56,608 nucleotides of DNA from Hondaea fermentalgiana (Eukaryota; Sar; Bigyra; Thraustochytrida; Thraustochytriidae): assembly GCA_014084085.1 (NCBI GenBank), contig NPFB01000187.1, forward strand, positions 4,317 to 60,924, in the 5' to 3' direction. The notes under the pieces were generated by a model that was given only the letters and a program-made list of their open reading frames with translations, did not search any database and was not told where the DNA came from. Shown piece after piece: positions 43,111-56,608 of the stretch (the stretch's first letter is position 1; the number at the start of each line of letters is the position of its first letter). The translations under genes and the position numbers were made by a program.

Positions 43111-44322
43111 TCAAAAGGCCGGGTTCATGATCTGGCGGCAAAGCGGCTTTTGGCAGGTAAGACACTTCATCTTGTACTGAGGCGAGTAATTCTGCTTGGC
43201 GTCGAGATGATTCTTGACAACGTCAGCGAGAGCATTGCAAAATGTCTCAGAGCCGTTGAGACCTTCAGTGAAGCGAAAGTCGGCGATGCCCGCCTTTTCG
43301 GCATCCTCGGCGTACTCCATGCCGATTTCGAAAAGAGTTTCGATATGGTCCGAAGTAAAGGCAACGGGAACGACGAGAACAGATTTGTGGCCACGCTTGC
43401 CCAGGTTCTTGAGGACCGACTCCGTACTTGGCACCATCCAAGGAAGAAAACCAACCTTGCTCTGCCACGCGAGCACGTGCTTGTTGACGGTGCGCAAGCC
43501 AGGAATCTTGCCCTCGCCAACGACCTTGGTGTCGAGGCGCTCCATGACGGCCTTGACGCTAGCAGCAATTTCGTTGACGTAATGATCACCTTTTTCCACT
43601 ACCTTCATGGGCACCGAGTGTGCGCTAAAGACAATGACAACGTTCTTGCGGGTCTTTTCGTTGAACTCGAGAAGGCGCTCCGTGATTCGCTCGGTGACGG
43701 CTTCCAGAAATCCCTCATGGAGGGGCCAGCGGTCGATGATGCTCCAGCGGAAGTTGTCTTGCAGCCCGAGGCGGCGCGTCTCGCGCCAGAGCTCGTTCAT
43801 GCTCGAGCCGCTCGTGGTGCATGACCACTGGGGGAACTGTGAAAAGGCAATGGCATGCTCGACGCCGTCCCTCTTCATCTCTTCCAAGGCGACGTCTGTG
43901 AGCGGAGAAGCGTAGCGAAAGGCCGTGTAGGCCTTGTGCGGCGCACTCTCGGGACGAATTTCGTCTAGAATGGCCGCCATGCGCTTGCCCTGGTACTCGG
44001 TCCACTTGCGAATGGGGCTACCGCCAATCTCCTCGTATTGCTTTTCTACCTTGGGGGTCCGCATGCGCGCCACCACCGTACCGAAGACCTCTTGCATCTG
44101 GCCGCCGCCCAGGTCAATGATATCTGTGTCCCGGAACAGACGATTCAGGAACGGCCCGGTCTCCTCGGGCTTCGACGGTCCGCCCATGTTAAGCATGAGG
44201 ATCCCGGTCTTGACCTTTTTCGCAGGCTCTTCGCCGCTGCCGTTCGCCGCCGTCGCCGCTGCCGCCAGTCCGCGCGCGCCCTGCGTGCGGAGCAGCAGTC
44301 GCGAGCTTCGCAGCGCCATCAT
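43111..44322 (-). CDS. Ferrochelatase, mitochondrial, with [2Fe-2S] cysteine ligands
   Basis: 403 residues from ATG at 44322. It catalyses insertion of ferrous iron into protoporphyrin IX, the last step of heme synthesis. Basic/Ala-rich presequence (about 1-30) predicts mitochondrial import. Family motifs: ILMLNMGGP, GGSPI, FSQFPQWSC, IIDRW, the catalytic-His segment VFSAHSVPM, and FTSDHIETLFEI. The C terminus has Cys387-x2-Cys390-x4-Cys395 and an internal Cys168 in WSCTTSGSS. This spacing equals the four [2Fe-2S] ligands of human ferrochelatase (Cys196, 403, 406, 411), so an iron-sulfur cluster is predicted. Single exon. The upstream region carries a GAGCA repeat about 190 bp from the start. 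Confidence 0.93.
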   Translation of the reverse strand: MMALRSSRLLLRTQGARGLAAAATAANGSGEEPAKKVKTGILMLNMGGPSKPEETGPFLNRLFRDTDIIDLGGGQMQEVFGTVVARMRTPKVEKQYEEIGGSPIRKWTEYQGKRMAAILDEIRPESAPHKAYTAFRYASPLTDVALEEMKRDGVEHAIAFSQFPQWSCTTSGSSMNELWRETRRLGLQDNFRWSIIDRWPLHEGFLEAVTERITERLLEFNEKTRKNVVIVFSAHSVPMKVVEKGDHYVNEIAASVKAVMERLDTKVVGEGKIPGLRTVNKHVLAWQSKVGFLPWMVPSTESVLKNLGKRGHKSVLVVPVAFTSDHIETLFEIGMEYAEDAEKAGIADFRFTEGLNGSETFCNALADVVKNHLDAKQNYSPQYKMKCLTCQKPLCRQIMNPAF

Positions 44323-46068
44323 GCTTGCTCGCTCTCTCTATCCTTGCCGCCGACTTGACTGTGACCGGCCGCGCGAGGGCTGACGGCCAACTGGCTGGCT
44401 GGCGTGCGTGCGGGCGGGCGGGTTGGTCGGCTGCCGGTCCGCGTCCGTGGCCGGGATGGCCTGGCACGCCCTTGCGCCCTTGCGCTGCTCTTCGTTTGGC
44501 TTGGCGCTCTGCTCTGCTCTGCTCTGCTCTGCTCTGCTCTGCTCTGCTTTCCTTGTTCGGGATTGGAGGGAAAGAAAGGGTCATTCGTTGCCTCTTGCCA
44601 GTGGAGACACGCGACATGAAAGAGTCTGCGGACAGAGGACGCGCAGAGCAAGGGACGGCAGAGCAGGCGGAGAGCGCAGAGAGCGCAGCGAGCGGTCACG
44701 GCGCGGCGAGCTATCGCAGCTGCCAGGGGCCGGCCGTCGCAGCAGCGCAGCGCAGCGCAACGCGCAACGCGGCGGAACGTGGCGGCGCGCAAACCTCGAA
44801 CCCCTCCCTTCCCATGCGCCCTCGCCGCGGCGTGCGCCGGCTGCCACGATGCCACTGTCCCCGCAGAGCTTCGGCGCGTTGCGCAGTCCGCGGGGCCGGG
44901 CGCAGCGGTCTTGCTCTGCTCGACGAAAGCAGCGGCGTCTGTGATTGACACTCGACCGTCCCGTGGCGGCACCGGCCAGTGCAGACAGCAGCTGCGCGTG
45001 CAGGGATGTCATCGACGGACACCAGCCAGCCAGCCGGCCAGCCAGTCTGGCTGCGTGGTGAGAGATCAGTATACGGTCAAGTCTGAGTCCAATCCGAGGG
45101 TGGATAGCTCGATGAGTGGCATGCAGCCGCGCTCTCACTCATTGTCCATGCCGCCACTTGATTGTTTCTGTGGTGGGCCTTCTTTTCTACCGGCCGGCCG
45201 CAGTCAGCATGGTTGGCTGGCCGGCTTTCCTCCACGCCTCCATCACCGTTTGGGCTGCAGCGCATACTCGATGAGGCCTGCTGCAGAGTTGGAACAAGTT
45301 CGGCGCTCGTCGTCGGGTCGTACTCAATATGTGGGCCCGTGCATGCTGGGCTGCTCGTAAATCGAAGACGCCTTTATACGTTGAGCGGAAAAGGCCTGCC
45401 CTATCGTCTTTCGCACATTTCCTTGCTGCTGGAAATACGTAGTAGTTTGCTGTAGCCAGTGCCAGAGCGACTCGCTTCCGTTGGCGGCATGGCTTTTTGA
45501 CCACTGAGAGCGGGCCTGTTGTGTAAACAGTGGCAGTATGGCCAGCAACGTCTGTCTGCGACAGCGGCTCCAACAATGAATGTAAGAAAAATGCCTAGCC
45601 GCCTGAAGCCCAACCTGCTGCAGCTGCCACTGCTGCTGACTGTTCAAGTCTCTCCCTGATACTATTACTGTCAGTTAGTTGTCAAGCGTGGCTGCGCGAT
45701 CCTATCCTCCTCGCCCTCCCAACTCCACTATCACCAGAGCCTTTGACATGCAGCAACAGCAGCGGCAGCAGCCAGCTGCAGCAGCAGGAGACACAATTTC
45801 AAGTATACGTATAGCAAAGTGTGCAGTGAGTAAAACTTCCGACTTGCCGTTATGGCGGGCAAGCGCTGCTTGACTGTCTGGCTGGCCATGGCTGGCCGGC
45901 ATCACAGGCTGCGTCCAGCAACAGATCACAGCGGCCAAGCAGCCAGGCGCACGGGCGCAGGGATCGCTCGCTCGCCATCGGTGGCGGGCGGCGGCGGCAA
46001 ATCCGATTCATGCTCGCGAGCGCTAGAGGGAGAGAGCGCTAGAGGGAGGGAGAGAACAAGCTCAGCTC
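44323..46068. other. Divergent promoter region
   Basis: 1.75 kb between ferrochelatase (-) and the S1 protease (+). A GAGCA pentamer tract (minus-strand sense) lies at about 44508-44550. Other frames are GC-driven. No RNA or protein gene recognised. Confidence 0.5.
44508..44550 (-). repeat. (GAGCA)n pentanucleotide repeat
   Basis: About eight units, read as GAGCA on the coding strand of ferrochelatase. The same unit in the same gene-sense orientation occurs upstream of the cysteine synthase fusion at about 35262-35292. Confidence 0.85.
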
Positions 46069-47382
46069 ATGGTGGTGAAGGCCGCACAGTGGACAGCCAT
46101 CGCAGCTGTCGCAGTGCTGTGCGCCACCCAGACGACGGAGGTTTGCTGCGCAACAGATGATGATGCCGTACAAAGCGTGACATCACCACTTTGGGGCAAT
46201 ATCGTCAATGGCGAGGCTGCTAGCGAAGCGCCCTCGTGGATGGTGTCTCTGCAGGGCGAAAAGTCCGGCCACTTTTGCGGCGGGACTCTTATTGATCCCA
46301 GCTGGGTGCTCACAGCCGCCCACTGCTTGCCTGGTGGCGCGGTACCAGGGCGCATGGTGCTTGGCGCGAGCGATCTCAATGACGAGAGCGCCCCAGCTCA
46401 GGTCCGGGTCGTGGGCAGAGAGAGCGATCGAAAATTCACCACCTATGTGCACCCCGACTTTACAGGAACTGCAGGCAAGAACGACATCGCCCTTGTACAC
46501 GTAACGCCGCCGTTTCAAGTCACATCGGACGACATCATGATTCTAAATGCTGACCCCGCCGCTGAAGATGCAGAATCTGATCTTTGGCCGACGGTGACGG
46601 GCTGGGGCACCATCAAATTTGGATCCAGCGAAATGGAAACGGAGCTTCGCACCGCAGACATACCCCTCGTGCCCATTCAAGACTGTCGAAGCCTCTATGG
46701 AAGTACGCTTGTCCTCGACTCTAACCTGTGCGCTGCAGGGGGCGACACGAGCGCCTGTCAGGGCGATAGTGGCAGTCCCCTTTTCCGTACGCGAGACGAT
46801 GATCGCGCTGTGCAGCTTGGCATTGTAGCCTGGGGTCACGGGTGCGGCTGGGTGGGTTACTACGGCGTCTATGTCAAGGTGCGCTCGTTTCGGTCGTTTA
46901 TTTTGGAATACGTACCCAATGCGATCTTTTCCGACGATATTGATGACGATGACGATGACGACGATGATGGAACTGATACGGCGCTGAAACTATACCAAAA
47001 CCAGGAGGATGCTTGCCGAAAGCTCTCGCGTCGCCGCTGTAAGAACCGAGCCAATCGCGCGACCTGCCACTATGCGGGCAAGCGCTGCCGGGCGCACCCA
47101 ATTGAGGGCATGCTGGTCTCCACATTCTGCGCAGTGATGAGCATAAGTCGCAGCTGGTGCTCTCTCGATCGCTTCGCGCAAAACTGCTACTGGGACAGCG
47201 GAATTTGCTCTGCGATTCAAACGCCAAGCCCAACACCAATGCCAACCATGAGTCCAACAATAGGGAGTTGCAAAAAATACAAGTCAGACCGTCAAGCTTG
47301 CGAGGCGGATTGGTCGTGTCAGTGGAATGGAAACAGCTTCCGACCCATCCGACGACGCTGCTCGCGCCGAGCAGGACTTTGA
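46069..47382 (+). CDS. Secreted chymotrypsin-fold serine protease with Cys-rich C-terminal modules
   Basis: 437 residues. A signal peptide (about 1-27, AAVAVLCATQT) is followed by a mature N terminus at IVNGEAA, like the IVGG activation site of S1 proteases. The triad is complete: His85 in TAAHC, Asp139 in NDIALV, Ser234 in GDSGSP. The residue six before the catalytic Ser (the S1-pocket 189 position) is Ser rather than the Asp of trypsin, so chymotrypsin-like preference is inferred. After the protease domain come a run of Asp, then two or three short Cys-rich modules (ACRKL...C...C and SCKKY...C...CQW...C) separated by a Thr/Pro linker, probably an extracellular binding region. Predicted to act outside the cell. 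Confidence 0.82.
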   Translation: MVVKAAQWTAIAAVAVLCATQTTEVCCATDDDAVQSVTSPLWGNIVNGEAASEAPSWMVSLQGEKSGHFCGGTLIDPSWVLTAAHCLPGGAVPGRMVLGASDLNDESAPAQVRVVGRESDRKFTTYVHPDFTGTAGKNDIALVHVTPPFQVTSDDIMILNADPAAEDAESDLWPTVTGWGTIKFGSSEMETELRTADIPLVPIQDCRSLYGSTLVLDSNLCAAGGDTSACQGDSGSPLFRTRDDDRAVQLGIVAWGHGCGWVGYYGVYVKVRSFRSFILEYVPNAIFSDDIDDDDDDDDDGTDTALKLYQNQEDACRKLSRRRCKNRANRATCHYAGKRCRAHPIEGMLVSTFCAVMSISRSWCSLDRFAQNCYWDSGICSAIQTPSPTPMPTMSPTIGSCKKYKSDRQACEADWSCQWNGNSFRPIRRRCSRRAGL

Positions 47383-47932: not shown

Positions 47933-50900
47933 CTACAGGTGAAAATTGTCGCCGACGATATCCGGGGTGAGCAGCGGCTGCAGCAGATTACGCACTTTGC
48001 TGCGTGTCTCTTGATCTTCGATCTTGCCCGACATGTACTGACGAAGACGCTGCGCGCGGATGCGGGCCCATGCTTGGCGCACAATGGCAATGTCGCTAAA
48101 GTATGGATCCGCATCTTCGTCGTCGGGCTTTTCCGGGCAGTTGGCCACGTGGAAATGACAACCGTCTGCATTGTCGCCCGCGTCATGCAAACACCATGCG
48201 CAGAAACGGCACGGACACTTGCTGCACTTGAGCGCACAGCAGCCCTCAAAGTCATTAAACGTCGTGGAGCAGCGGGGGCATGCCAGGTTTAAAACCTCAT
48301 TTTCAATGACGCGAAGGTGCCCCTGCGTCGTGGTGTCCAGGCCATGCTCGCGGAGCAGCGAGTCGACCCGAAGCTGCACCTGTCGATCCTGCTCGGCCGC
48401 CGCATCTCGCTCAAAGTGCTCGCGCACAATGACGAGCAAGGCCGCAAAGTCCTCATCCGGTACGGCAGTTGCAAGGGTTCGTCCTGGGATCAAGAGCTCG
48501 CAGTCCGGGGAGACACAGCACATACTTCCGTCGCGCAGCACCTTGACGTGGGCGTCGGGCTTGGTCGCGGCGCGCACCGACTGGCTCAGGCAATCTTTGC
48601 AGGTAAAATGGCCATCGGCGCAAGACACTCCCTTTGTAAGAGGAAAGATGTCGAGACAAATTGTGCACGAGTCCACGGGGACGGGCTGGACCTGAAAGGC
48701 CTCGTGATGCATGGACTGCAGCGCAGAGGGGCGTTGATCTGGATTTGCTGAGCACAGCGCGGTAATGAGCGATTGAAGAGGCCCGTTGGGGGCCGCAAGT
48801 CCGCCAAAGAGCTCCGCGAGTACAACTCCTACAGAGAACATGTCCACTGCAGACCCGACCTTGCTGATGTTGCCCTGGCGTAGCTCAGGGGCAAGGTACT
48901 TGATGGTGGTTTGCAAAGGCTGGGTCATGGTCACGTCGAGGGCTTGCACGCCATCAAAGTCCCCGAGCACGGGCGAGAGACCGGGCGCGAGAAAGACGTT
49001 CTCGGGCTTGACGTCGCAGTGGATTAGGTCTCGAGAATGCAAATCATGAAGACCCGAAAGAAGGCCAATGGCAATGTGTCTGCGCGTCGCCACGTCTGCA
49101 TGCGGGTTGTCGCGGATCCAGGCGGCAAGGTCGCCGCCTGGATAGTACGGCATAAGGATGCACCCGTGCCGGCCGTCCTCCCAAAAGGCTCCCTGGATGC
49201 GAACAATGTAGGCCGAATGAATCTTGACGAGCGCAGCGACTTGGCGATAAAAGCGGCCATTCCATTCGTCGTTACCCACATGAAAGGATTTAAGAACCAA
49301 GTCCCGACCATCGGGGGCCCGCACACGAAGCACTGTCTTGCCAGGCTTGAAGGCCAGCTCGGCGAGAACCTTGAAGTCCTTGCGCTTGGCGTTGGTCAGC
49401 CAGAGCCCCATCTTGGATAACTCCTGCGGGACTTGATCTGCCATGCCGATGCTCTTGAGCCACTTTTGGTCCTGAAGCAGCTCCGGATAGTGTGCCTCTG
49501 CGTGTTGCAACACCCGCGCGCGCTCCTTGCGGAGCTCGCTGTCGAGCTTGTAGATGCTTTCGACCTGCGTCAGCTCTTTCTCAAGAGCAGGAACCGCGAT
49601 TTGAGCCTGCGCATCGCCGTCATTTGCATCCTCGCGGGCAAACTTGAGATCTTGCTCCAGACGCTCCCGCTTGCGTGAGATTTTGCGGATCTCAGCGACA
49701 ATCTTTGTGACACGCGCCGTGTTCAACTTGTGGCGTCCACGCGCAAGATGCGCGAGAAACGATCTGAGACGGCTGTCCTGGGTTTCCAAACGCGAGACCT
49801 CATTTGCGATGGTGCGCGTGTAAAAGGAGACGGCAAAGCCGAATGCGCGCTGTATCTCCTTGAAGGGAGCGTCGTCCAATCGATCGGCTTTGAGCAAAGT
49901 GTCGAATTCTGCTTTGAAAGCTTGTTGCACGCTTTCGAGTTCCCTCGTGAGCTCCTGAATCTTTTCGGGATGCCGCAACGACAAGAAGACGGACGGCTGG
50001 ACGCCAAAGCGCCGCGTACTCTCCTCGAGCGCATCAAGGGCTGCAATCGTGCGCTCATGCGCAGCGCTCGCGTCGTGTCGAGCCTCCCACGCCTCGAGGG
50101 CTTTGCGTGCAGCTTGTGCTGCCTGCTGCACCTCTGCAAAGGGGACTTGGGATGTTGCGACCATTTCAAGAGTGGTTTGCCCAAGGGAGTCGCTCGCTTC
50201 GGAGGATTCGCGTAAGATGTCCTGCCACAGCTTGAGACAGGTGTCCACCACTTTTTCGGGCTCATGGCGCTCGCGTAGCATCTTGAGCTGGTCTTGCACG
50301 TTACCGGAGAGCGTCTTTCGAAGATATGCCACCAGATTGCGTCGAGCTGTGTCGCGCTTTGAGGCTATGGCTGCGTCGGATACAACAGCCTTTTGTAGCT
50401 CCGTAAAGTTTTGGACAAACTTGCAGGCCTGCGCCTGCTTGTGGGCAAAGTCCTCAAGCACCGCGAGCGGATTCTTGCGGGAAAGCTGCTCGGCCAGAAC
50501 CTTGTGCAGCATCGGGTGAAGCACGGGCTTGTCTTTGCCGCGCAACGTGCGTGCAAAAGATACCTTGGCAGCAAGCGCCTCGACCTTGGTCGTTTGCTCG
50601 GGGTATGCAAACGTTTGCAAGAGCACCTGACACTCCTTGACAGAGACGAGGCCCATCTCTCGAAGAAGAGCGGGCGTGAGATCTCGGGCGTCTTTGGCGG
50701 TTCGCACGCCTTTGTCGAAGAGCGTGACGATGACCGCTCTCGAGTCGGTTGTTTTGAGCTGCACGAGAGGCAGTGGCTGTACGAACGAAAGAAAGGCCGC
50801 AAGATCTGGGCACTCCCGCGAGATGGCGTGGGCGCGCGCCTGATCAATGCCAAGTCTCTCGCTGGACAGACCTGTGCCATGCTCGAAGAGAAGCTTGGCC

Positions 50901-52407
50901 AAGACTAGGCTTTTGGTATCATCATTGGCCTCGCAAGCGTGAAAGAGAGCTGTTTTGCCCATGCTGTCGCGGGCATCGGCTCGCACGCCGCCAGAGAGGA
51001 GTCTTTTTGCAGCAGGAATGTCGAAGCTTCTGCACGCCTTCATGAGCGGAGTAAGGCGCTTTGCGTACAGCTTATGATTGCGCTGGAGAGCGGCTTTCAG
51101 CTGAGGGGTATTGATGTCCAGACTGTGCGGTTGACGCGAGAGTGAGTGAGTGAGTCGTGTGCTGGCGCCATCACCCTTTGATTGACAGTAACTTACACTA
51201 GAGTCTGTAGCGTGCTGTTCTTTGCAAGTACGTCTGTCAGCGCCACAGTTCCGTCCTGGCTGATCTTGTTACTCTGGAGACTGCGTGCACGATTAGGTGA
51301 GTTGCTTGTTGTCTGTGGGGTTATGCATGCTTGGTGCAACGTACTTGAGCGTATGCAGCGTGACGTTTCGCGAGAGCGCGGTTGCTAAAGGCGTGGCGCC
51401 TTCGTCAGCAATGGCGTTCTCAGAAAGGCTGGGTTATTGAATTTTAATTGGCATGTCAGTCGATCTCTTGCTCGGGCACAGGGTAGAAAACATATCGGCG
51501 ATTACTTACTCGAGCGTCTGCACAGACTTGTTCCTTGCGAGGCCGATTGCCAGCCCCGCGGCACCCTCGTCGCCAATTCTGTTGCGTGCAAGGCTGTATT
51601 TGGAAGTATATGCGACGTCATTTTGGAACGGTTCGAATCTCTTGTGAGTTGCGTGGTTTTTGTTGCAAGGAGAAGGGCCCTTTGGGAACTTACGAAAGCG
51701 TCGATAGCGACTTGTTGCTCATGAGAGCGTTTGCCAGCGCCTTGGCGCCCACGTCCCCGATTTCGTTGTAGGACAGACTACGCAAGCTCTTGTCAGTTGT
51801 TGGTGCGCGCCCGGTGCAGGTGGACCTTGCGGCTTTATTATTAGTATGGAAGTAGCTTCCAAGAACGGACGAATCGAGACCAGTCTCGATTCTTCAGCCC
51901 TTGATGTCTTGTCCAAACTGATTAACCAGCAGGCTCGAGGCTCAATCTCTGCCCTGTTTCTGTACTGTAAACTTACGAAAGCGACTCTAGGGTCTTGTGA
52001 CCCGCAAGGACTTTGGCCAAGGCAGAGACGCCCACAGGGCCGATCTCTGTGCATGACAGACTATGTGTGTGCGAATGATTAGCAGTACGCGTTGATTGTC
52101 AGTGAGCGATTGCGGTGGGGTCGCTTTTCTCTTGATGTTACGTACTCGAGCGTCTTTAGCGACTCGTTCGCGGCGAGCGCGCCCGCGAGTGTCGTGGCAC
52201 CCTTGTCGCCAATCTTGTTGCTCCCAAGACTGTGTGTTCATTGGTTTTCGATGTCAGCGTGAAAAGCATGATGGCAAGCGCATCGGTTAGTGACAAGTGC
52301 ATATCTGGCACGGCTCGAGTTCGCTCGTTCACCTACTTGATTTCCGTCTCGCCCCGGGCCAGGGCTTTAGTGGCCCTTGCGACAGGGTCCTCACCTGAAG
52401 GCTCCAT
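47933..52407 (-). CDS. LRR-ankyrin-kinase-RBR E3 ligase fusion (eight exons)
   Basis: Modelled on the minus strand as 52337-52407, 52146-52229, 51977-52060, 51694-51777, 51510-51593, 51345-51428, 51197-51280, 47933-51122; total 3765 nt, 1254 residues. Exon 1 starts MEPSGEDPVARATKAL. Each of the six middle exons is 84 bp and encodes one 28-residue RNI-type repeat (e.g. LGSNKIGDKGATTLAGAL), with GTACGT, GTAAGT or (after exon 1) GTAGGT donors. The last exon has ankyrin repeats (about 215-290), a long helical region, and a protein kinase with HCDVKPEN (about 892), DFDGV in place of DFG (about 912) and YLAPE. A RING (CTICLDIF, about 1009) and an RBR RING2-like domain follow (CPRC...GCCALKCSKC...CAWC, about 1140-1184). 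Inference: a cytosolic sensor that couples phosphorylation to ubiquitin transfer. A paralogue lies at 56346. Kinase activity is not proven given the altered HRD and DFG. Confidence 0.75.
51197..52229 (-). repeat. Six 84-bp LRR exons of identical phase
   Basis: Exons 52146-52229, 51977-52060, 51694-51777, 51510-51593, 51345-51428 and 51197-51280 are each exactly 84 bp and begin with the third base of a codon. They share the core LxxNxIGDxGAxxLAxAL...NxSLxTL. Introns are 64-199 bp. Confidence 0.85.
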
Positions 52408-53364: not shown

Positions 53365-53740
53365 CTTTTATCGAGATGAGCATAGGATCATTCGGCCCCC
53401 CTTTGTGGCTCGTTGATTGCTGCCAAGATCAAGGTGGCTCTCCCCCTTGAGAAGAGACCCGGGGATGCGAAACAACCAGCACACCAAGAACTTTTATCGA
53501 GATGAGCACAGGATCATTCGCCCCCCCTTTGTGGCTCGTTGATTGCTGCCAAGATCAAGGTGGCTCTCCCCCTTGAGAAGAAACCCTGAGATGCAAAACG
53601 ACCAGCACACCAAGAACTTTTATCGAGATGAGCATAGGATCATTCGGCCCCCCTTTGTGGCTCGTTGATTGCTGCCAAGATCAAGGTGGCTCTCCCCCTT
53701 GAGAAGAGACCCGGGGATGCGAAACAACCAGCACTCCAAG
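53365..53740. repeat. Three 126-bp tandem units (minisatellite)
   Basis: Units start at 53365, 53491 and 53617 with CTTTTATCGAGATGAGCA, giving a period of exactly 126 bp and only a few substitutions between copies. 126 is a multiple of three, but the frames across the units show no recognisable protein. Confidence 0.9.
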
Positions 53741-56345
53741 CGATGCAGAGGCCTCGTTTGCGTTGTAGCAGCGGTTTTACCTCTGGGTCTCTCGGCAATG
53801 CAACCGAAACTTGACATTCAGAAAGACGCTTGACCAAGAACAAGGCGTCTTTGTCTGCTTTGGGGCGCTGAAACCAGGTGCACATTTGTCCGAATCGCCA
53901 AGTGTAGGTTTGGGTAGATTGATGGCATCGGAATGGATTTGCTCAAGCTTGAGCATCACTCGCGCAATCATGACTTTTAGTGTCTTTGCTTCCCTCGACA
54001 ACCTGTGTTGCGTGCAGGACCGCGCAAGGCCGTGTATTCTGATTTTCCGCAAGGCGAATGAGATGAGGAGTTGCCCACGTGGTCTAATCAAATGCATGAT
54101 GACTTCGGAGGCTGGTCATTACCTTGCAGACGTCGCGATCTTGGCAATGCTACAAGGGTGGCGTGCGACACATGGGTGGACGACGCTGCCATTGCGTAGA
54201 CTGTGGCCACCACAAGGTGGTCGTAAGTTTTGATCTGCACTAAAACGCCGCTCCGTCAACGCGGAAAAAGAGATACACATACTCATTCACTCGCTTGACG
54301 ATTATTTGGCAACGTGTCAGTGCAAAACATGTAGCTTGGTTCGGCAGGAAGGAAAGTCTGCTCTTCTAGCGCTCAAGAGGCTTGGGACCATGTGAACATG
54401 CCATTGGTTCGGCTTGGGGCCTCCGCTCGTTTCGACTCACTCCTTTAGCCGGCCCGAAAAGGAGCACATTCAAATCGTGCTCAAGAGGCGTGCTCAAGTT
54501 CGATCAAAACCCGAATACCGACACCATGGGCGTCGATTTCACCAACGATTTTCCAGCGATCATGGAGAGTTCTTACAAGGTTGTACTGGGTGTACATTGA
54601 ACGCAAGGATAGCTGGGATCAAGCAGCGAGGTGACTGCGTAAGAACACCGTTCGGCACAGGTCGGCTCAGGGCCCTTTGCCGGTCGCCGACCCGGGACAG
54701 GTTTTATATCAAGATATGGCGCGCGCAAGCGGCGCGCGCAAGAGGCGACGCAACCGTGCAGCAAATCTTGCTCTCATAATCTAGGGCGCGCTTCCGGCAA
54801 AAAGATTGTGCAAAAAAACGCACTTTCGACAGTGGCAAGTCTGCCGCAGTCGAAGGTGAAGGAACTTGTCGAAGGTGAAGGAACTTTCGTCTTTTCTTCG
54901 TCGCTCATCACAATAACTTCGAGATGTGGAGATGAGACACTATCTGAAGAGACGGTGCCGCCCTTGCTCGCTTGTTCTCCGCGGCGGCGACTCGGAATAA
55001 GCTTACTCAAGCGCCGTCACGTTCACTTGCTGATAAAAGTTCACGCAATGTGGCGCCGCGCGCAGTCGCGTTCTTGCTGCTCGTGGAGCGCGCGTCCGCG
55101 ACTACAGGCGACAGTTGGACGGGCGGCTTCGGGTTCTACTCTGCTGCGCAAGACACCGCCCGGCCGGGTCGACGCGCGTTTGCAGCTGCACCTGCCAGAC
55201 GACGAGATGGGTTCCCACTTACTGCCTGATGCCCTGCTGCGTTCGACTTGCGAAGCAGCTCATAATTTGCGTTGCGCAGAATGCGTTGCGCGGACAAAGC
55301 ACCTGACAGTGAGCGCAAGAAGTTCGTTTTGCAGCCTGACTGACAGTGGGGGAAAGTAAATAAGCGCGACTGAGAGCACGTGCGCTTTCAGTTGTCCGCG
55401 TGCGGCGTGCGGCGTGCGGCGTGCGGCGCATTTGAAAAAGGTGAATCGTTGGCGTGTGTCCCGAGAATGTGCGCGCGCGCAGCACGTCACCTACAGTAGA
55501 TGGACATTCTCTTTTTCACGTCACTTCCGACGTGTTCAACGTCGTGTGAAGAGGGAAGCCCGAGCAAGCATGCGCGCACGAGAGCAGCTAGACAACCGTG
55601 GCCATGGCCTCAAGCAAAAACTGCCCAAATCTGTCAGCAGCAGGCCCGAGCTTTAAGCAGAAACGCAAATTCTATTCAACGAAAATATTCGACCTTTGCC
55701 GTAACCACGATCATTCTCAGCAAAAGGGCTGTCCAGTCTTACGTTTGAATGATATCTCAATACTGCCGCACCAACTTTGGCCATCCCAACTTCCTCTCAG
55801 CTCTAGCTTCCATGCCTTTGCACGTATCGCAAGTCCTCAACGTCGTCAGGAAACTCGCAGAGGTCATTGAAAAATGCCGAGGCACTCGGTCTCTACGCCA
55901 AAAATTCTTGTCAAACTTTTACAGCCCAAGCTCGGCGGGACGAACACCTCCATCCAAAAGATACTCGTGTTTTTTTTATTTATAAAAGATAAAAAATGGA
56001 AGAAAAAAAACACATTCACATGTCAACACCGGGACTTCGCGTGCAGTCCCCTATCACACTACTAACCCGGCCCTACGTGACTTTTCTGCTCAGTGCGAAT
56101 GAGATGAGGAGTTGCCCACGTGGTATGATCGAATGTGAAAAGCTTGAGAGTTTTGATCTTATATATTACTAGTTCAAAGTTGGCCACTTTCCCCAAAAGT
56201 ATGATCGTTGCGAAGCCGTGCGCCACGCGGCGGCGGCGCCGGGCAATCGCATGAATCCTTATGTAATAGTTGTCAGAAAACGTCTGGCCCCTCGAGAAGA
56301 CGTAAGTCGAACATGAGAAGCAAAGCGAAAACTGGTAACTATGTT

Positions 56346-56608
56346 TTAGGAAAAAGTAAAATTGTCGCCGACAACATCCGGGGTAAGGAGTGGGTGCAGC
56401 TTGGCCAGGACGTTGGCACGCATGCTTGTGCCTTCAATCTTTTCCGCCATGTAGCGACGAAGCCGTTGTGCACGAAGCCGAGCCCACGCTTGTTTTACAA
56501 CAGCAAAATCGCTAAAGAATGGATCTTCATCGCCAGCAGGCTTTGACGCGCATGTTGCAACGTGCTGATGACAAGCGTCTGCATCATTGCCTGTATCCTG
56601 CAGACACC
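56346..56608 (-). CDS. 3' end of a second LRR-kinase-RBR paralogue (partial)
   Basis: The last 86 codons plus TAA (56346-56348) of a gene entering from beyond the window. The readable C terminus, from a Cys/His segment (ACHQHVATC) through FFSDFAVVKQAWARLRAQRLRRYM to LLTPDVVGDNF, aligns without gaps through most of its length with the C terminus of the gene at 47933 (YFSDIAIVRQAWARIRAQRLRQYM, LLTPDIVGDNF). It therefore ends in the same RBR RING2 region and tail. Same strand and head-to-tail order imply a tandem gene array. Confidence 0.85.
   Translation of the reverse strand, partial: CLQDTGNDADACHQHVATCASKPAGDEDPFFSDFAVVKQAWARLRAQRLRRYMAEKIEGTSMRANVLAKLHPLLTPDVVGDNFTFS

Follow-up and report, generated by a model that had tools for sequence, protein, structure and literature searches.

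A Hondaea fermentalgiana gene joining leucine-rich repeats, ankyrin repeats, a kinase and an RBR-related RING1-RING2 part

Can a single gene code for a recognition region, a protein kinase and a ubiquitin ligase? The question is raised by a locus of the thraustochytrid Hondaea fermentalgiana, within a stretch of 56,608 nucleotides (contig NPFB01000187.1, positions 4,317 to 60,924; assembly GCA_014084085.1) that was analysed as a whole and is called the window below. An earlier note had read the minus-strand gene at 52407-47933 as a leucine-rich repeat (LRR) sensor followed by ankyrin repeats, a kinase and an E3 ligase of the RING-between-RING (RBR) type. As judged from its sequence, the window gene is one apparently intact member of a Hondaea multigene family. 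Its ligase part is identified by sequence comparison and a fold model as RBR-related and IBR-less, consisting of a RING1, a helical linker and a RING2.

Gene model and the LRR junction

When the gene was rebuilt from the sequence, the seven introns and the 1254-residue product proposed earlier were reproduced: eight exons, 3765 nucleotides, 1254 amino acids and a stop. All seven introns of this model are GT..AG, and an in-frame stop was found 5' of the start ATG. Each of the six middle exons measures 84 nucleotides, is in phase 2, is flanked by AG and GT and codes for one LRR of the RNI type. The exons and the front-end domains are as follows.

52337..52407, minus strand: exon 1, start codon and short N-terminal cap (ATG, upstream in-frame stop, GT donor)
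52146..52229, minus strand: LRR exon 1, 84 bp, phase 2 (gene model; LRR_6)
51977..52060, minus strand: LRR exon 2, 84 bp, phase 2 (gene model; LRR_6)
51694..51777, minus strand: LRR exon 3, 84 bp, phase 2 (gene model; LRR_6)
51510..51593, minus strand: LRR exon 4, 84 bp, phase 2 (gene model; LRR_6)
51345..51428, minus strand: LRR exon 5, 84 bp, phase 2 (gene model; LRR_6)
51197..51280, minus strand: LRR exon 6, 84 bp, phase 2 (gene model; LRR_6)
47933..51122, minus strand: long last exon (junction matched in the paralogs L012, L013, L015 and L025)
50876..51064, minus strand: ankyrin stretch of about two repeats (Ank_2 29.1 bits against a cut-off of 27.3, in the long exon)

The long last exon runs from an LRR half repeat through ankyrin, a helical middle, kinase, RING1, linker, RING2 and C-tail to the stop. 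A scan for AG-84nt-GT LRR exons gave six matches on the minus strand, none on the plus strand and none on either strand of 100 dinucleotide shuffles. Its consensus was written after these exons had been seen and derives from them, so that the independent support for the LRR exons is that of Pfam. In the spliced N-terminus LRR_6 scored 118.2 bits over six stretches and Ank_2 35.2 bits, both above cut-off, as was Pkinase in the long exon.

Pfam and the junction between the LRRs and the long exon, which is shared by the four paralogs, bear out both the order of the domains and the reading as one gene. In these paralogs, LRR exons were detected in numbers of 11 (L012), 2 (L013), 1 (L015) and 4 (L025), three of the loci beginning at contig edges. 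An acceptor follows 59-64 bp after the last LRR exon and leads, with unchanged phase, into the half repeat seen in the window gene; of the further acceptors that are also open downstream of it, none yields the matching half repeat. Furthermore, the parts are found together in database proteins. P0109, whose N-terminus resembles the exon 1 product by eye, holds LRRs, kinase, RING1 and RING2 in one frame of 1240 amino acids (on a 4357-bp contig). The transcriptome-derived P0139 (1415 amino acids) combines LRR_6, kinase and a RING2-type domain, its RING1 being irregular by eye. The alternative is that two neighbouring genes are present, the LRR exons forming one and the long exon another that starts from an internal ATG. 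It draws on P0002, a 1009-residue protein that matches the long-exon frame exactly from residue 103 to residue 1111 and omits the LRR exons. Because the phase-2 junction is repeated in four paralogs and both P0109 and P0139 carry the parts in a single frame, a fusion is preferred and two separate genes are very improbable.

The ligase and kinase parts

The kinase and ligase-like end of the long exon consists of the following parts.

48695..49393, minus strand: protein kinase (Pkinase 95.7 bits against a cut-off of 31.7; alignments; kinase fold in the model)
48500..48667, minus strand: RING1-like domain, C-x2-C-x11-C-x3-H-x2-C-x2-C-x24-C-x4-C (family profile, fold model)
48281..48499, minus strand: cysteine-free helical linker in the place of an IBR (73 amino acids, 0 Cys; helices in model mbe52e8003d0f)
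48137..48280, minus strand: RING2-like domain (family profile against cullin-9 RING2; Cys in 32/32 rows)
48239-48241, minus strand: putative catalytic Cys1153 of RING2 (cullin-9 RING2 alignment; invariant in 32/32)

The cysteine clusters that had been read as RING and RING2 are real, yet they score below every RING and IBR cut-off in Pfam. A profile built from the family did match RBR ligases, namely the RING1 of RNF216 and the RING2 of cullin-9, the latter at E 2.3e-4 with the cysteines aligned. The cullin-9 residue opposite Cys1153 is the catalytic cysteine of that ligase. In structure prediction, the fold model of the ligase part matches RBR ligases. A 512-residue model gave fold matches to kinases only and is uninformative on the ligase part.

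Conservation was followed in 32 rows chosen from several sources, those without a RING2 match being left out. This concerned nine of 28 rows in which the RING2 pattern was not matched (P0001, P0008, P0010-P0014, P0016 and P0021), although P0008 by eye carries the domain with one residue changed; most further homology matches also stand outside the alignment. All 32 chosen rows agree at the RING2 ligands and at the catalytic-place cysteine; the RING1 positions are kept in 29-32. Neither in these rows nor in the fold model was an IBR found between RING1 and RING2. The linker that takes its place is helical and measures 69-82 amino acids with 0-4 cysteines. The residue at +2 after the catalytic-place cysteine is Ala in 32/32, whereas it is His in cullin-9 and, in the sub-threshold alignment, Arg in RNF216.

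The IBR is described as one of the three domains that define RBR ligases (PMC5758712), and the window protein, which has none between its RINGs, is therefore an IBR-less relative instead of a canonical RBR. Of the original reading as an RBR-type E3 the kinship stands, through RING1, RING2 and the catalytic-place cysteine, and the completeness does not. The Pfam models nearest to the last domain are named IBR_1 and IBR_2. An assignment of that domain as IBR was nevertheless rejected, since the cullin-9 match and P0141 put it at RING2. P0141, a canonical RBR, also has RRM and CCCH domains; its RING2 is of the type found in the window gene's family, and it is a possible link between the canonical and the IBR-less forms.

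The two zinc domains could also be what is left of a decayed RBR, inactive as a ligase and serving for structure or protein binding. The missing IBR, the Ala in place of His at +2 and the sub-threshold Pfam scores weigh on that side. However, the RING2 ligands and the extra cysteine are retained in all chosen rows, two relatives (P0111 and P0130) have an N-terminal ubiquitin domain, and for RNF216, with its Arg at +2 in the sub-threshold alignment, a transthiolation complex has been described (PMC9834252). Decay is on balance unlikely.

The kinase shows the motifs HCDVKPEN, GDFD and YLAPE. Its key residues K803, D895, N900, D913 (of GDFD) and APE are present, and Q819 replaces the alpha-C Glu; a GxGxxG glycine-rich loop was not seen. 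In the kinase alignment (32 of 37 given rows, five being dropped where the search motif was missing) the beta-3 Lys is kept in 30/32, the catalytic Asp of HxD in 31/32, the Asn in 32/32 and the first Asp of DFx in 31/32. All 32 rows have DFD instead of DFG, and the alpha-C position is Gln in 22, as in the window, Glu in nine and His in one. The ratio of non-synonymous to synonymous substitution (dN/dS) was determined for the window gene and 11 loci with a usable frame out of 13 tried, with 34-66 of 66 pairs per segment at dS <3. The strongest constraint was seen in the kinase and in the linker plus RING2 (medians 0.15 each), against 0.40 for the ankyrin part and 0.35 for the first middle part, with ranges reaching 0.54 (RING1) and 0.58 (C-tail); with dS medians of 0.86-1.70, near saturation, these ratios are rough.

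It may be asked whether such a domain is a mere switch for the ligase, a pseudokinase whose fold binds ATP or a partner and thereby positions RING1, ubiquitylation being the sole catalytic output. The frequent Gln at alpha-C, the absence of a recognisable glycine loop and the uniform DFD would suit this. The retained Lys, Asp, Asn and DFx Asp stand against it and, together with the kinase median of 0.15, rough as it is, fit selection to keep catalysis. On sequence grounds the domain is more likely to be an atypical kinase that is still active, and a pseudokinase is possible but rather doubtful.

Family, sensor interchange and selection

The long exon is matched at 46 places in the Hondaea genome. 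Counting C139 as one, 17 loci including the window gene cover more than 400 of its residues at 29-68% identity; one or two stops interrupt the match in five of these. Loose RING2 fragments occur besides. Such RING2 or C-tail fragments were seen at C222, C88, C31, C128:13074, C175:196909, C193:210 and C12:238734, some near contig ends, and are either relics or pieces split by assembly. Canonical IBR domains above the Pfam cut-off were found on two contigs only, C91 and C172 (four matches), and canonical RBRs seem to be outnumbered in this genome. Four Hondaea database proteins, P0006, P0010, P0015 and P0016, are annotated with LRR_6 and a kinase, and a RING or IBR is annotated in none of them.

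For 11 of the 17 loci a contig end is no more than 10 kb away, where about 13% would be expected (binomial p 1.2e-6). A subtelomeric location would give such an excess, but so would an assembly that breaks at near-identical copies. At ten loci at or near contig ends, four TTAGGG-type words were tried and none occurred more than three times. A scan of viral contigs with one short pattern, a weak test of viral carriage, matched 31 stretches, none of which was confirmed.

Outside Hondaea, the kinase-RING core is present in P0018, P0019, P0109 and P0110, which form one clade with the Hondaea copies (support 100/100), and in Chromera velia (P0023), Polarella glacialis (P0111) and further sources. 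The front ends vary: RNI-type LRRs, another LRR class (P0115), ankyrin repeats, a ubiquitin domain, or ubiquitin plus ankyrin. RING1-RING2, or RING2 alone, also occurs in helicase proteins without a listed kinase (P0114, P0116-P0120 and others). In P0111 and P0130 a ubiquitin domain, a kinase and RING1-RING2 share one chain, parts like those of PINK1 plus parkin. At the place of ubiquitin Ser65, located by eye, P0111 has Asp and P0130 Ser.

A tree was built from 28 cores, with good support for 12 of its 25 inner branches and seven of them open. The fewest LRR/ankyrin changes that it requires are seven over 18 labelled rows, the labels being coarse, since LRR copies carry a short ankyrin stretch too. 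A topology that groups the five LRR-bearing Hondaea copies to the exclusion of seven others (one with an unknown front) was rejected by the approximately unbiased test (p 0.0009). LRR and ankyrin front ends are therefore interleaved on the core tree.

In L012 the introns between the LRR exons are about 88% identical over the first 60 bases and 85% over the last 60, which implies recent duplication of whole exon-intron units. The corresponding introns of the window gene are mutually unlike (about 31% identity) and are not recent duplicates. Similar 84-bp phase-2 LRR exons were found at four more loci. In L033 (C170, 3893-1260, minus strand) 16 of them, and in L034 (C110, 7133-2385, minus strand) five, precede a ROCO-like frame that by eye has the Ras-like P-loop typical of ROC domains; two output types thus use a similar kind of LRR exon. 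For L031 (C28, 11 LRR exons), part of which reads N, and L032 (C133, ten) no output domain was identified.

Exposed LRR positions are less constrained than the framework (pN/pS in L012 0.49/0.55 against 0.11/0.30), and in the position table of L012 the differences at LRR positions 2, 3 and 8 are all non-synonymous. As evidence of positive selection on LRR surfaces this was rejected: after correction for sites, exposed pN was below pS in six of six loci, and the bootstrap intervals span zero.

Recognition of variable targets is favoured by the family size, the copies with stops and the sensor interleaving. A different account would be a housekeeping family of stress or quality-control ligases in which the LRRs bind invariant partners of the cell and play no part in immunity or recognition. 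The number of loci, the stop-bearing copies with the loose fragments, the recent duplication in L012 and the interleaving speak against it. On its side are the lack of shown positive selection and the dissimilar LRR introns of the window gene, and the housekeeping account, although the less probable one, has to be reckoned with. The failed selection test speaks for caution on an immune role, and gene conversion among the cores could yield the same interleaving.

A second, truncated family copy and several neighbouring features were seen in the window.

56358..56606 (C98:60674-60922), minus strand: C-terminal part of another family copy that runs off the end of the window, 63% identical to long-exon residues 1026-1109
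56018-56135, minus strand: 5S rRNA gene (Rfam RF00001, 78.2 bits)
53369-53740: about three tandem copies, by eye, of a ~120-bp unit starting ttttatcgagatgagca
46027-47382, plus strand, adjoining the gene: trypsin-like serine protease frame that contains an Asp-rich stretch and ends in a cysteine-rich tail (by eye)
43111-44337, minus strand: ferrochelatase-like reading frame (by eye)

Possible working and relation to known systems

The window protein is probably an intracellular receptor, in which the LRR array with the short ankyrin stretch would recognise a ligand and the output would be given by the kinase and, directly behind it, the IBR-less RBR relative. The starting points of this reading were observed or computed: how the gene is built, the order of its domains, its place in a family, the RBR-related sequence, the conserved catalytic positions and the sensor interleaving, together with the RBR-like fold predicted for the ligase part. 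That a ligand is bound, where in the cell the protein works and what it does there, that the kinase is active, that a thioester forms and in which order the steps follow, we infer from these by analogy. A ligand would bind the LRR or the ankyrin part and so relieve a restraint via the helical middle. Phosphorylation by the kinase may then target the kinase itself, the ligase next to it or a bound partner. RING1 would bind E2~ubiquitin (E2, ubiquitin-conjugating enzyme); the ubiquitin would be handed over to Cys1153 in RING2 and from there to a substrate that the sensor holds or has nearby. An immune role would be one option among several.

The earlier note had also called the recognition region NLR-like (NLR, nucleotide-binding and LRR receptor). 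This holds for the RNI-type LRRs only, since Pfam found neither NACHT nor NB-ARC in the long exon at E 10 or in the N-terminal 296 amino acids at E 0.1. NLR receptors resemble the window protein in having LRR_6 repeats of this type, one per exon, and P0016 is named NLRC3 by its source; in the window protein, however, the LRRs are N-terminal and the output is kinase plus ligase. With RBR E3s such as RNF216, parkin, HHARI/ARIH1, HOIP and cullin-9 it shares the RING1 pattern and fold, the helix after RING1 and a RING2-type domain with a catalytic-place cysteine. It differs from them in the absent IBR, in the Ala at +2 and in the position behind a kinase, with LRR or ankyrin repeats in front. RIP kinases and other ankyrin-kinase proteins combine a kinase with ankyrin repeats, as the window protein does, but in a different order and with no known RING1-RING2 part. 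In the PINK1-parkin pair a kinase and an RBR-type ligase work together. The window protein has both kinds of domain, to which the relatives P0111 and P0130 add ubiquitin, whereas its kinase and ligase stand in one chain and nothing points to the kinase acting on ubiquitin.

The LRR-ROCO genes of brown algae have been described as carrying one LRR per exon in 72-bp phase-2 exons subject to exon shuffling (PMC11378527). The one-LRR exons, with phase 2 throughout, are common to both, and Hondaea has such exons before the ROCO-like frames of L033 and L034. The algal genes differ in exon length (72 against 84 bp), LRR consensus and output, which is a GTPase instead of kinase plus ligase. No ROC-COR domain was matched by Pfam in the long exon at E 10. 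The Phytophthora kinome includes kinases with ankyrin and other domains, and the word RING is absent from the main text of its description (PMC3019232). In the literature searched, largely at abstract level, no description was found of the LRR-kinase-ligase combination or of an IBR-less RING1-RING2 behind a kinase. The single pieces are already known. The claim that no protein with this order had been described has to be narrowed: relatives exist in the databases (P0006, P0010, P0015 and P0016 of Hondaea, and P0109 and P0139), and no paper describing the combination was found.

More tentatively, the window gene may belong to an undescribed protist class of kinase-ligase receptors with interchangeable LRR, ankyrin or ubiquitin-like sensors. 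In such a class the kinase would gate the ligase in cis, a counterpart to the trans gating of parkin by PINK1, and Hondaea, with its expanded family, would possess a recognition repertoire alongside LRR-ROCO genes of similar exon type. This wider proposal is speculative and less likely than not.

As the ligase layout lacks an IBR yet keeps the catalytic-place cysteine in all compared rows, the need for an IBR becomes directly testable, and the adjoining kinase is an obvious candidate for a regulator of such a ligase. Unicellular eukaryotes, the family suggests, also possess enlarged receptor families that swap their sensors and lack the nucleotide-binding domain of NLRs; searches for NLRs would miss them.

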